Source of the DNA: Pseudomonadota bacterium
Lineage (GTDB): Bacteria; Pseudomonadota; Gammaproteobacteria; Acidiferrobacterales; Acidiferrobacteraceae
Direction of reading: 5' to 3'
Length of the DNA stretch: 38,682 nucleotides
Assembly: GCA_021827145.1 (NCBI GenBank)
Contig: JAKAXK010000012.1
Span: forward strand, 1 to 38,682
Shown here: piece after piece, positions 2,333-5,890 of the stretch
Position numbering within the stretch: position 1 is the first letter of the stretch
Layout: each line of letters opens with the position of its first letter
Notes under the pieces: model-generated
The model's database searches: none
Told to the model about the DNA's origin: nothing
The model's input: only the letters and a program-made list of their open reading frames with translations
Position numbers and translations under genes: made by a program

Positions 2333-2402
2333 AGTCTACGCACAGAAACATCACCTAAACTTGATGCATATCAAGAGGCGGCACCGCAAGCAGTTGTATT
2401 TG
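2333..2402. promoter_or_regulatory. Divergent FNR-dependent promoter region with one perfect FNR box
   Basis: TTGATGCATATCAA at 2361-2374 matches the FNR/ANR consensus TTGAT-N4-ATCAA at all ten defined positions. On the minus strand, TAGACT (2338 to 2333) is a -10-like hexamer predicting a start at 2326, which puts the box centre at -41.5, the class II activation distance. On the plus strand the sequence around 2395-2402 (TGTATT, or TATTTG shifted by two) gives a start near 2407-2409 and a box centre at about -40 to -41.5 for nrdD. The box is a palindrome, so one dimer could serve both directions. The box is seen directly; promoter use is inferred. Confidence 0.85.
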
Positions 2403-2431: not shown

Positions 2432-4435
2432 GTGATGGCCGCTCCAACCCCCGGCAATGTACGCAAACGCGACGGTCGCGTCGTACCCTTCGATGATCGC
2501 AAAATCTACTATGCGCTCCTGCGCGCAGGGCTCGCCACAGGCGAGTATGGACCCGACGCCGCAGCCCTCATGACCGAGCAGGTGGGGGCGCGAGCCCCCA
2601 CGGGCAGCCCGGATGTCGAAACCATCCAGGACCTCGTGGAGGACAACCTGCTTGCGCACGGTCATAGGCGCACCGCCCGCGCCTATATCGTATATCGAGA
2701 AAAACGTCGGCTGACGCGCGAACAGGGCAAGGTGCGGGTCGAAGTCGAAGAGGCGATCACCGAGTATCTCGATCGCCGCGACTGGCGCGTGCAGGCCAAC
2801 GCCAACCAGGGCTACTCGCTCGGCGGACTGATACTGAGCGTATCCGGCAAAATGGTCGCGAACTTCTGGCTGAATCATGTCTATCCAAAAGAGGTGGGCG
2901 AGGCCCATCGCGACGGGGCCCTGCACATCCACGATCTCGACATGCTTTCGGGTTACTGCGCAGGCTGGTCGCTGCGCACATTGCTCACGGAAGGACTAAA
3001 CGGGGTCCCGAGCAAGGTCGAAGCGAACCCCCCGAAGCACCTATCGAGCGCCGTGGGTCAGATTGTGAACTTTCTTGGGACGCTGCAGAACGAATGGGCC
3101 GGAGCGCAGGCCTTCAGTTCCTTCGACACCTATCTCGCACCCTTCGTGCGCAAAGACCACATGCGTTATGAGGAGGTCCTGCAATGCATCCAGGAGCTCA
3201 TCTACAACCTCAACATTCCATCGCGCTGGGGCACGCAGACGCCCTTCACGAACCTGACGTTCGACTGGACTTGTCCGGTGGATCTCCGCGATCAAGTGCC
3301 CGTCATTGGGGGCGAGGAGATGCCTTTTACTTATGGCGATCTCGCGCCCGAAATGGCCATGATCAACAGGGCCTACCTCGAGGTCATGGAGACAGGGGAC
3401 GCCAAGGGCCGGGTCTTCACCTTCCCGATACCGACCTACAATATCACCCCCGACTTCGACTGGGAGGGGGAAAACACGGAACGGCTGTTCTCTCTCACCG
3501 CGAAATACGGCCTTCCGTATTTCCAGAATTTCCTGAACTCCGACCTCAAGCCGCACATGGTGCGATCCATGTGCTGTCGCTTACAGTTGGACCTTACAGA
3601 ACTCCTGAAGAGAGGCAATGGCCTGTTTGGGTCGGCGGAACAGACGGGGTCTCTCGGCGTGGTTACCATAAATTGTGCCCGCCTGGGTTATCTCCACAGA
3701 GGCGATGAGGCTGGCCTCTTGCGCAATTTCGACCAGCTCCTGGAGCTTGCGCGCACGAGTCTCGAGATCAAGCGCAAGACCATACAGACCTACATGGACC
3801 AGGGGCTGTTTCCGTACACGAAACGTTATCTAGGCACGCTGCGCAACCACTTCTCGACGATAGGCATCAATGGAGTCAACGAGATGGTGCGGAACTTCAC
3901 GGCGGACGAGGCCGACATTACGACGCCGCAAGGCCATGCGATGGCATGCCGTCTGCTCGATCACATGCGCGGGCGGCTCACGGAGTTTCAGGAACAGACG
4001 GGGCACCTCTATAACCTCGAGGCGTCGCCGGCCGAGGGGGCCACCTACCGATTCGCGCGCGCGGACCGCAAACGCTTTCCTGGCATCGGCCAGGCCGGGA
4101 CCGCCGAACGCCCGTACTATACCAATTCGTCCCAATTGCCGGCAGGGTTCACGGATGACCCCTTCGAGGCACTCGAACGCCAGGAAGACCTGCAGCGCCG
4201 CTACACGGGGGGGACGGTACTGCATCTCTACCTGAACGAGCGCCTCTCGAGCCCCTCGGTCGCTCGTGACTTGGTGCGGCGGGCTTTGGGGCGTTTTCGC
4301 CTCCCCTACATCACCATTACACCAACGTTTTCGATCTGCCCGCGTCACGGCTACCTCGCGGGCGAGCACCCTTTTTGCCCGATCTGCGACGAAGAAGCGT
4401 GGGCGCGGCGGCGAACTTTGGCGCAAGCCGAGTGA
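2432..4435 (+). CDS. nrdD: Anaerobic (class III) ribonucleoside-triphosphate reductase, catalytic chain lacking the glycyl-radical domain
   Basis: NrdD reduces ribonucleoside triphosphates to deoxynucleotides without oxygen. An ATP-cone lies at about residues 8-100 (KRDGRVVPFDDRKIYYAL), then the ten-stranded barrel (GYSLGGLILSVSGKMVANFWL, HIHDLDMLSGYCAGWSL, FTFPIPTYNITPDFDW). The chain ends soon after a zinc-type motif (SICPRHGYL...FCPICDEEAW). The usual C-terminal RVxGY glycyl-radical segment is absent. It is found instead in the next ORF, in the same reading frame after TGA at 4433. The start is GTG 2432 or ATG 2435; AAGGAG at 2420-2425 suits either. The gene is followed by the glycyl-radical ORF and nrdG, and an FNR box lies upstream. 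At 667 codons it would be near full length for the family but for the missing tail. Confidence 0.95.
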   Translation: MMAAPTPGNVRKRDGRVVPFDDRKIYYALLRAGLATGEYGPDAAALMTEQVGARAPTGSPDVETIQDLVEDNLLAHGHRRTARAYIVYREKRRLTREQGKVRVEVEEAITEYLDRRDWRVQANANQGYSLGGLILSVSGKMVANFWLNHVYPKEVGEAHRDGALHIHDLDMLSGYCAGWSLRTLLTEGLNGVPSKVEANPPKHLSSAVGQIVNFLGTLQNEWAGAQAFSSFDTYLAPFVRKDHMRYEEVLQCIQELIYNLNIPSRWGTQTPFTNLTFDWTCPVDLRDQVPVIGGEEMPFTYGDLAPEMAMINRAYLEVMETGDAKGRVFTFPIPTYNITPDFDWEGENTERLFSLTAKYGLPYFQNFLNSDLKPHMVRSMCCRLQLDLTELLKRGNGLFGSAEQTGSLGVVTINCARLGYLHRGDEAGLLRNFDQLLELARTSLEIKRKTIQTYMDQGLFPYTKRYLGTLRNHFSTIGINGVNEMVRNFTADEADITTPQGHAMACRLLDHMRGRLTEFQEQTGHLYNLEASPAEGATYRFARADRKRFPGIGQAGTAERPYYTNSSQLPAGFTDDPFEALERQEDLQRRYTGGTVLHLYLNERLSSPSVARDLVRRALGRFRLPYITITPTFSICPRHGYLAGEHPFCPICDEEAWARRRTLAQAE

Positions 4436-4447
4436 GGAGGAGATGGC

Positions 4448-4627
4448 ATGAAGGCAATTCAAGAAGCGGGGGAAGAGCGGGGGAGTTTGCGCCCCGAGGA
4501 GCGGCAACCGTGCGAAGTGTGGACAAGGGTCATGGGTTACCATCGTCCCGTAGCATCATTCAACGAGGGCAAGAAGGGCGAGCACTACGAGCGACGGTTC
4601 TTCGTGGAAAGCCGCCTTTCGGCGTAA
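4448..4627 (+). CDS. Stand-alone glycyl-radical domain of anaerobic ribonucleotide reductase (NrdD C-terminal part)
   Basis: A 59-codon ORF between nrdD and nrdG. Its middle reads CEVWTRVMGYHRPVASFN, which matches the RVxGYxRPVxxWN tail that carries the radical glycine in full-length class III reductases; the predicted radical residue is Gly30. The rest (GKKGEHYERRFF) also follows the NrdD tail. It has its own near-perfect Shine-Dalgarno, AGGAGG at 4435-4440, 7 bases before ATG 4448 and overlapping the nrdD TGA. It lies in the same frame as nrdD, separated by TGA and four sense codons, so read-through would give one 731-codon protein. I infer that it docks onto NrdD and is activated by NrdG. 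GrcA/YfiD, a spare glycyl-radical domain for pyruvate formate-lyase, is a functional analogy. Too short for ordinary gene callers. Confidence 0.88.
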   Translation: MKAIQEAGEERGSLRPEERQPCEVWTRVMGYHRPVASFNEGKKGEHYERRFFVESRLSA

Positions 4628-4629
4628 GC

Positions 4630-5313
4630 TTGCGTTTGGGCGGCCTCGTGCCTTGGAGTAGCGTCGATTACCCAGGGCATCAGGCCGCCGTCTTGTTCGT
4701 CGGTGGCTGCCCTTGGCGCTGCCCTTACTGCCACAACAGTCACCTCTGGGGGGCTCAGGCCGGCCTGTCGTGGGCAAGCACGCGGGAATTTCTCGAAAGA
4801 CGCGTGGGCCTCCTGGATGCGGTCGTCATGAGCGGTGGCGAGCCCCTCGCGCAAGCCGCCGCCGTCCGCGCGGCGCTGATGGAGGCGCGCCTGCTTGGTT
4901 TCGGGACGGCCCTGCACACCGCGGGCGTATCCCCCCGGCGCTTTGAGGATCTTCTCGGGTGTATCGATTGGGTCGGGCTCGACGTGAAGGGGCCGTTCTC
5001 GAAGTACGACGCCATCACCGCGCGCAAAGGAAGCGGCGAAGCGGCGCGCGCGTCGCTGGAGATACTGCTGCGCAGCGGAAAACCTCACGAGTTGCGCACA
5101 ACCGTCCACCCGGCCCTGCTGTCGGAAAGGGATCTCCTGACCATGGTGGCGGAACTTGCCGCCATGGGCGCGCACTCGGTGACGTTGAAGAGCTTTCGCC
5201 CGACCGGGTGCCCCGATCCGGAACTATCGGCGACCTATTGCCCCTGGCTGACACCCGCCCTCGAAAAGGCACTGCGCGCCATCATGCCCGAGGTGGTGCT
5301 ACCAGGCCATTGA
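4630..5313 (+). CDS. nrdG: NrdG, activating enzyme of anaerobic ribonucleotide reductase
   Basis: Radical SAM activase that installs the glycyl radical. The opening GGLVPWSSVDYPG, the cluster motif CPWRCPYC followed by HNSHLW, and VVMSGGEPL are all typical. It is about 227 residues. The family's normal N-terminus falls at TTG 4630 (LRLGGLVPW), three codons after TAA of the glycyl-radical ORF ends at 4627, so I choose TTG with translational coupling. No good Shine-Dalgarno is seen, and TTG 4636 is an alternative. The frame stays open further upstream, but that part is antisense-quality sequence across the glycyl-radical ORF. It is the last gene of the nrdD operon, and faces the end of the CopD-like gene. 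Confidence 0.93.
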   Translation: MRLGGLVPWSSVDYPGHQAAVLFVGGCPWRCPYCHNSHLWGAQAGLSWASTREFLERRVGLLDAVVMSGGEPLAQAAAVRAALMEARLLGFGTALHTAGVSPRRFEDLLGCIDWVGLDVKGPFSKYDAITARKGSGEAARASLEILLRSGKPHELRTTVHPALLSERDLLTMVAELAAMGAHSVTLKSFRPTGCPDPELSATYCPWLTPALEKALRAIMPEVVLPGH

Positions 5314-5404
5314 TCGAAAAGCGCCTCAAACTTCGCCGTCATTGTGGCCGCACCACCCATGCGAGTGGCAATGTGGCCCATCAGGGCGAGGAGGACGCCA
5401 ACCG

Positions 5405-5890
5405 TCAATCGACGCCCTGCGCCCCGAGAACGGCACCCACCACCACGAGCACGGCGATCGCGAGCAGAACGATATGACCGCGCAACAATAGGCGCCGGGT
5501 CGCCTCGCCGTCCCGCGCCCCGCGGTCTCGCAAGCGCCTGTGCAAAAACAGCGGCTCCAGGACGAAAAGCAGCACCATAAAGAGCGCCCAGAACGCGATC
5601 ATGCCATCGAGCCACAAACCGTGCGACGTGGCGGCAAGGGCCGCGAGATGCCATCGCGCCAACAGCGCACCGCCGGTGGCGCCCGCGATTAAGACCCAGA
5701 TGCGCGCCTGGAGGCCGAAGCGGCGCTCGATCTCGAGGAATGCCGGGATGCGCTCGGCGACCGGCAATCGCGCCAAGGCCGGAAGGATGACGGTGGTGAC
5801 GAAGGCCATGCCGCCCACCCAAGCGACCACGGACAGAATGTGCAGAGCCAAGAGCGCGGGCTCCACGGGAAAGGGGGTCAAGGTGATCAT
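5405..5890 (-). CDS. Small integral membrane protein, CopD/DUF2269-like
   Basis: A 161-residue protein with about four hydrophobic helices (LLALHILSVVAWVGGMAF, IWVLIAGATGGALLA, MIAFWALFMVLLFVLE, LLLRGHIVLLAIAVLVVVG). HILSVVAWVGG near the N-terminus, with one histidine in the first helix, is reminiscent of the CopD family, in which such helices bind copper or haem. It is the last gene of the NnrS operon; its ATG overlaps the NnrS stop as ATGA. I infer a role in the same nitrosative or respiratory stress response, possibly as a haem-containing membrane partner. Similarity to CopD is by pattern only and could not be tested. Confidence 0.72.
   Translation of the reverse strand: MITLTPFPVEPALLALHILSVVAWVGGMAFVTTVILPALARLPVAERIPAFLEIERRFGLQARIWVLIAGATGGALLARWHLAALAATSHGLWLDGMIAFWALFMVLLFVLEPLFLHRRLRDRGARDGEATRRLLLRGHIVLLAIAVLVVVGAVLGAQGVD

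Follow-up and report, generated by a model that had tools for sequence, protein, structure and literature searches.

A probable two-polypeptide class III ribonucleotide reductase with a detached glycyl-radical subunit in Proteobacteria

The anaerobic (class III) ribonucleotide reductase (RNR) locus of a bacterium of the Acidiferrobacteraceae (Pseudomonadota bacterium, assembly GCA_021827145.1) very probably encodes an enzyme made of two polypeptides: a catalytic NrdD body of 667 amino acids (aa) and a radical subunit of 59 aa, here called the tail. The locus lies on contig JAKAXK010000012.1, and the whole stretch analysed, 38,682 nucleotides (nt), is referred to as the window. The radical glycine has so far been viewed as part of NrdD itself, and no description of a split NrdD with a separate radical tail was found in the open-access literature searched. 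The features of the locus are as follows.

2432..4435, + strand: nrdD body, class III RNR catalytic subunit without the glycyl-radical loop, 667 aa
2456..2710, + strand: ATP-cone domain of the body (PF03477, residues 9-93, 8.5e-19)
2957..2959, + strand: invariant Cys176 of the body (GYCAGW), from the alignment
3572..3577, + strand: invariant Cys381-Cys382 of the body (SMCCRLQ), from the alignment
4337..4387, + strand: zinc-type motif C636-x2-H639 ... C649-x2-C652 on the body, presumed to bind zinc
4433..4435, + strand: TGA stop of the body
4435..4440, + strand: Shine-Dalgarno (SD) sequence AGGAGG of the tail gene, sharing one base with the body stop
4448..4627, + strand: tail gene for the putative 59-aa glycyl-radical subunit, ATG 4448, TAA 4625-4627
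4523..4564, + strand: glycyl-radical loop TRVMGYHRPVASFN in the tail, with Gly30 of the tail at 4535-4537
4630..5313, + strand: nrdG2 activase (TIGR02495, 1.3e-50), start uncertain, TTG 4630 or an upstream codon

The body starts at GTG 2432 or, alternatively, at ATG 2435, and the tail lies in the same frame, its ATG 12 nt past the end of the body stop codon. A preliminary description of the locus placed the tail 15 bases on, which is correct when counted from the first base of the stop. The rest of the layout it gave is borne out: NrdD ends at TGA 4433 past the zinc-type motif with the glycyl-radical motif off the chain (the open reading frames, or ORFs, and both profiles below agree), 59 in-frame codons follow with AGGAGG overlapping the stop by one base, and nrdG comes next, as the TIGR02495 match indicates.

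Body and tail match complementary parts of the NrdD models, so the two ORFs complement each other. Against NF006126 (PRK08270), the body covers profile positions 4-657 of 684 (1086.5 bits, cut-off 548) and the tail positions 645-682; against PF13597, the body covers positions 2-530 of 562 (566.4 bits) and the tail positions 530-562 (31.0 bits, cut-off 26.2). With the zinc-type motif retained on the body and the glycyl loop on the small ORF, the division falls within the glycyl radical domain, whose zinc-type half stays with the body. Cys176, Cys381-Cys382 and the four zinc-type residues (three Cys, one His) show no variation across the 25 bodies aligned; Cys176 aligns with YCFAYTL of T. maritima NrdD, and Cys381-Cys382 also match cysteines of that protein. 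Cys381-Cys382 are presumably the finger-loop cysteines, and we likewise take the body cysteines to have their usual active-site roles. The locus has an NrdD catalytic domain, cysteines at the active-site positions of barrel and finger loop, and an NrdG activase in the operon (TIGR02495 in the window). The glycyl-radical motif is absent from this chain and present in a separate ORF, for which reason we name the system a two-polypeptide variant of class III RNR. Judged by sequence, the detached loop is the part that bears the radical, and the simplest account is a radical subunit made on its own.

All 17 relatives within the genus or family, recovered from a search of 60 genomes (our own included) with a body threshold of 1e-20, have both body and tail; the remaining 42 of the 60, outside the genus and family, gave no body at that threshold. 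At the 18 family loci whose DNA was read (window included), the body stop is TGA, TAA or TAG, the tail frame relative to the body is 0, 1 or 2, and a purine-rich SD sequence stands ahead of the tail ATG. The tail overlaps the body in G009 and G015 and starts at least 9 nt past the stop in the others. Joint conservation of TGA and AGGAGG in relatives, the check that the preliminary description proposed, was not seen: the TGA itself is not conserved in the family, whereas the separate tail start, with its SD and ATG, is. For the tail core the pooled ratio of nonsynonymous to synonymous substitution rates (dN/dS) is about 0.065 in the window's family, or 0.113 with the most conserved (motif) columns masked, which indicates purifying selection. 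This low ratio and the retention of both ORFs in all 17 relatives argue that the split is not due to chance. The assembly of our genome consists of 221 contigs, and a sequencing error, frameshift or decaying pseudogene confined to it might be suspected. That explanation can be dismissed with near certainty: besides the dN/dS of the family tails, the same split occurs in every relative, the single-contig G005 among them, and it recurs in isolates known by name, for example Thauera linaloolentis, Thiobacillus thioparus and Cupriavidus necator H16.

The frame, spacing and start signals of the tail were compared across 126 non-redundant split loci from the family, class and phylum sets, named genomes and plasmids (fused, bodiless and duplicate rows dropped). 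Frame offsets of tail versus body are 32/45/49, and the tail overlaps the body in 20 loci. An SD of at least 4 nt precedes the tail in 123 of the 126, as against 14.5% of control ATGs picked in the same way, and nrdG lies downstream of the tail in 118. In genome G688, body and tail are ~9 kb apart on one contig with other genes between them, and nrdG stands behind the tail. These data bear on the second reading that the preliminary description had offered alongside a two-polypeptide enzyme, namely that the TGA is read through to give a single chain with a long linker. The window by itself would fit, as body and tail share a frame there without a further stop between them. Among the 126 loci, however, only 32 have the tail in frame, the stop codon differs from locus to locus, the tail overlaps the body in 20 and nearly always has its own SD, and in G688 the two parts lie far apart. 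Neither a conserved stop codon nor a conserved frame between the parts was found, and comparative data on stop, frame, spacing, the kept SD and ATG, and G688 rule out read-through for the family; we give it practically no credence, and the two-polypeptide reading is strongly supported.

The guess, also made in the preliminary description, that other proteobacteria have short ORFs for an NrdD tail proved right. With the window tail alone as query, matches outside the family were weak (E 0.11-0.76), and the surveys were therefore run with the Pfam model for the complete NRDD domain. In the class survey (PF13597, 369 genomes), 37 genomes had a match, comprising 28 split, 7 one-frame and 2 fragments; the DNA of all 28 split loci was read. 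The phylum survey (PF13597, 397 genomes, partly overlapping the first) gave 63 genomes with a match, 16 of them split as in the window and another 45 single-frame according to the match table. The other two, G671 and G739 (L232, L233), belong to a different NrdD lineage that is also cut between the zinc-type motif and the radical loop (TAG, 12 nt, ATG, then a tail with RRITGYL); they are near-identical and count as one case, and because their tail is in frame, read-through may apply in that lineage. A tail-profile scan of 84,980 species, each represented by a single genome, yielded at least 579 stretches, at least 563 of them confirmed. The best 80 comprise 74 split loci, 1 fused and 5 tails without a body upstream, figures that give no rate because these 80 were picked by likeness to split tails.

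Named split genomes include Thauera linaloolentis, Hydrogenophaga taeniospiralis, Thiobacillus thioparus, Cupriavidus laharis, Devosia sediminis and Undibacterium aquatile, and the split is also found on plasmids of C. necator H16, Sulfuricurvum kujiense and Bradyrhizobium japonicum. In all three plasmid records the annotation of the small ORF reads nrdD, anaerobic ribonucleoside-triphosphate reductase, and the RefSeq label for such tails is "nrdD". Many genome records are assemblies, and the phylum assigned to some metagenome bins (Omnitrophota, Elusimicrobia, Chlamydiae, Verrucomicrobia) may be wrong through misbinning. The putative two-piece anaerobic RNR is common to many Proteobacteria.

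Split and fused forms are not distributed at random in phylogenetic trees. A 142-row tree (12 selected loci gave no body long enough, and L141 was left out as short) contains one group of 130 rows with 125 split and 5 fused members; it requires 7 label changes versus a shuffled mean of 14.5, and 0 of 500 shuffles were as low. In a 57-row tree the corresponding values are 6 and 8.5, with 5 of 500 shuffles as low for the label "split". The five fused members (Maricaulis, Acidiphilium and Actinomyces plasmids, G275 and G754) have linkers of 8-26 residues and a loop of the split type, for which reason these nested genes are likely re-fusions, with weak support at several joins.

Tails also occur away from any body. 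Five genomes carry a second, unlinked tail beside a body with its adjacent tail: G321, G422, G423, G425 (Magnetospirillum fulvum) and G426; these were preselected, four through an orphan in the species scan and G321 through the class survey. The second tail of M. fulvum (L246:4637-8220) lies directly before the class I-type RNR genes nrdA and nrdB, and that of G321 (L234, around 5350-5450) is part of a phage-like module, together with RecT, SSB, YqaJ and an RNR barrel gene. In G424 the tail alone was matched, without a body, and nrdG adjoins it. Lone tails are present on plasmids of Allochromatium tepidum and A. vinosum (L164:2460-2645; L242:3980-4189), neither of which is among the 28 plasmid records with an NrdD body, a comparison made within plasmid records.

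Among viral sequences, 174 IMG/VR stretches were matched and 162 confirmed, and the best 80 of these were fetched (L249-L328). The NrdD body is absent from the fetched locus in all 80, with upstream DNA of at least 2.3 kb in 61 and less in 19, and nrdG was not found in any of them. In 41 whole viral records searched (11-108 kb), the tail is the only NRDD match in every case. These records are assemblies, none with a completeness rating of 90% or more; none contains an RNR barrel, and so no link to phage genes for deoxyribonucleoside triphosphate (dNTP) synthesis is seen there. A PHROGs search covered 103 of 137 flanking ORFs, from 27 viral loci; the families among the matches listed (25 of 169) include integrases, portal, terminase, tail sheath, baseplate, head and endolysin, a mixture that points to several kinds of phage or prophage. 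The window tail and three of the viral tails match phrog_4132 (function unknown). Eight viral tails (L266, L268, L271, L276, L300, L305, L319, L321, with two pairs identical in this stretch) bear a Cys-rich N-terminal extension that is perhaps a zinc knuckle of their own. In INPHARED (50,697 records), three tail queries gave 1, 2 and 3 weak matches in three records total, of which two carry an NrdD annotation at the match and the third is unannotated; so few matches argue against orphan tails being widespread among isolated phages.

That phages and plasmids carry lone tails suggests a tail that acts on bodies encoded by another gene, possibly as a spare part. Phage orphan tails might instead be decoys that inhibit host NrdD or NrdG without supplying a radical, a proposal in keeping with the lack of a body or barrel in the 41 viral records and of nrdG at the 80 viral loci. 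We consider it unlikely: viral tails keep the radical glycine and its surroundings (a conservation inflated by the search, which demanded part of the motif), and their cores have a selection ratio of 0.22, or 0.34 with the search-pattern columns masked, as under purifying selection.

Several observations weigh against the tail as a separate, exchangeable subunit. A second tail occurs in only 1 of the 28 split genomes of the class survey. Within the DNA examined, nrdG was not found after the tail in 8 of the 126 split loci, 3 of them from the window's own family (L043, L045, L046). The five fused members with the same tail type among split ones indicate that splitting is not indispensable. In a predicted fold, tail Gly30 is positioned like Gly580 of T4 NrdD, and the aligned ends of T4 structures 1h7b, 1h78, 1h79 and 1hk8 set it at residue 580 (that of 1h7a does not); however, the fold was made on an artificial single chain with the TGA read as Trp, and the body-tail continuity of the model is therefore built in. 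It is quite conceivable, though we rate it a little short of even, that the tail is a permanently bound small subunit and the split neutral, without exchange or repair: most genomes have a single tail in the order nrdD-tail-nrdG, and fused members do sit among split ones. Unlinked second tails and bodiless phage or plasmid tails, in contrast, make sense mainly if a free tail joins a body made elsewhere, or acts otherwise.

One further element of the operon and its surroundings can be listed.

2361..2374, + strand: exact FNR/Anr-type box TTGATGCATATCAA, 57 nt ahead of the nrdD start

This box, whose consensus we take to be that of FNR/Anr, is the sole exact match in the window, and 0 of 100 shuffles gave one. 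Scans for sigma-70 promoters and terminators around the operon were no richer than shuffles. Divergent from nrdD, an overlapping pair of minus-strand ORFs (714-1646 and 1621-2289) resembles radical S-adenosylmethionine proteins, the Cys motifs having been judged by eye. A class I/II RNR barrel was not found in our genome and is present in the other 24 of 25 genomes compared; as the sole miss, it is ascribed to incomplete assembly.

Ordinary NrdD/NrdG systems of the NF006126/PRK08270 type likewise have a catalytic body, ATP-cone, cysteines, zinc-type motif and NrdG2 partner, and their glycyl loop belongs to the same sequence family; in the window, however, the loop is a separate polypeptide. 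Residues 676-739 of P. copri NrdD, for example, contain both the zinc-type half and the glycyl loop (PMC11226230; this and the other papers cited are drawn on in part). Also close are the spare parts of pyruvate formate-lyase, E. coli GrcA/YfiD and phage T4 Y06I: these, too, are small free radical-glycine proteins, also phage-borne, that complete a large glycyl radical enzyme (PMC8683613). The tail is a small separate protein with a glycyl-radical motif, but it lacks the homology to the pyruvate formate-lyase C-terminus expected of a GrcA, PF13597 being its sole match at E up to 1; although its action may resemble that of GrcA, it is not classed as one. The analogy gains support from the unlinked tails and phage-borne orphan tails, and lone tails may be GrcA-like spare parts. 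GrcA/YfiD differs in that the window body has no loop from birth, which would make the tail both a required subunit and a potential spare. According to the part of Andorfer et al. (2021) covered, YfiD and T4 Y06I are the only validated spare parts, and others are possible for further glycyl radical enzymes (PMC8683613).

The split class II NrdJ of Pseudomonas, to which the preliminary description pointed, is indeed on record: NrdJa/NrdJb of P. aeruginosa are also two consecutive ORFs, though of another RNR class (PMC4009431). In cultured phages, nrdD is the most often split RNR gene (6 cases), the RNR splits being ascribed to introns, inteins, homing endonucleases or unknown breakage; the part of that survey covered contains no detached radical tail (PMC3653736), in contrast to the viral tails without a body found here.

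An older result may be affected as well. The NrdD of C. necator H16 (676 aa, 76,191 Da) has no radical motif; its Gly650 is the glycine of CPTHGYLAGEH at the zinc-type motif, and on pHG1 (L159:1777-4150) the radical motif is in the next ORF, of 66 aa. A 1999 J. Bacteriol. paper on the 76.2-kDa H16 NrdD reportedly found that G650A abolished anaerobic growth and took G650 as the radical site. If so, the mutated glycine sits at the zinc-type motif and the radical glycine in the next ORF, and the older assignment needs a second look. For P. aeruginosa, NrdD (PA1920) is given as 76 kDa in PMC12284477, a size that would suit a body on its own.

In the enzyme we propose, the ~7-kDa tail would dock into the body at the position taken in ordinary NrdD by its C-terminal loop. 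NrdG would abstract a hydrogen from tail Gly30, and the resulting glycyl radical would produce a thiyl radical at the active site of the body. Because it is detached, the radical subunit could be made in its own amount, and an oxygen-cleaved tail may be exchanged for a fresh one. By extension, class III RNR of Proteobacteria would be largely modular with a diffusible radical subunit, and phage or plasmid orphan tails would join a host body, be charged by host NrdG and boost or repair dNTP synthesis in the course of infection under low oxygen, a proposal we regard as evenly poised. If true, the tail would be a second, RNR-specific sort of autonomous glycyl radical cofactor besides GrcA/Y06I, and orphan tails make the spare-part idea of Andorfer et al. 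directly testable. If the two-part form is the usual one in many Proteobacteria, "NrdD" from them expressed alone should be a dead enzyme, and the naturally separate pieces would offer a clean system for radical-subunit titration, exchange after oxygen and half-site reactivity.
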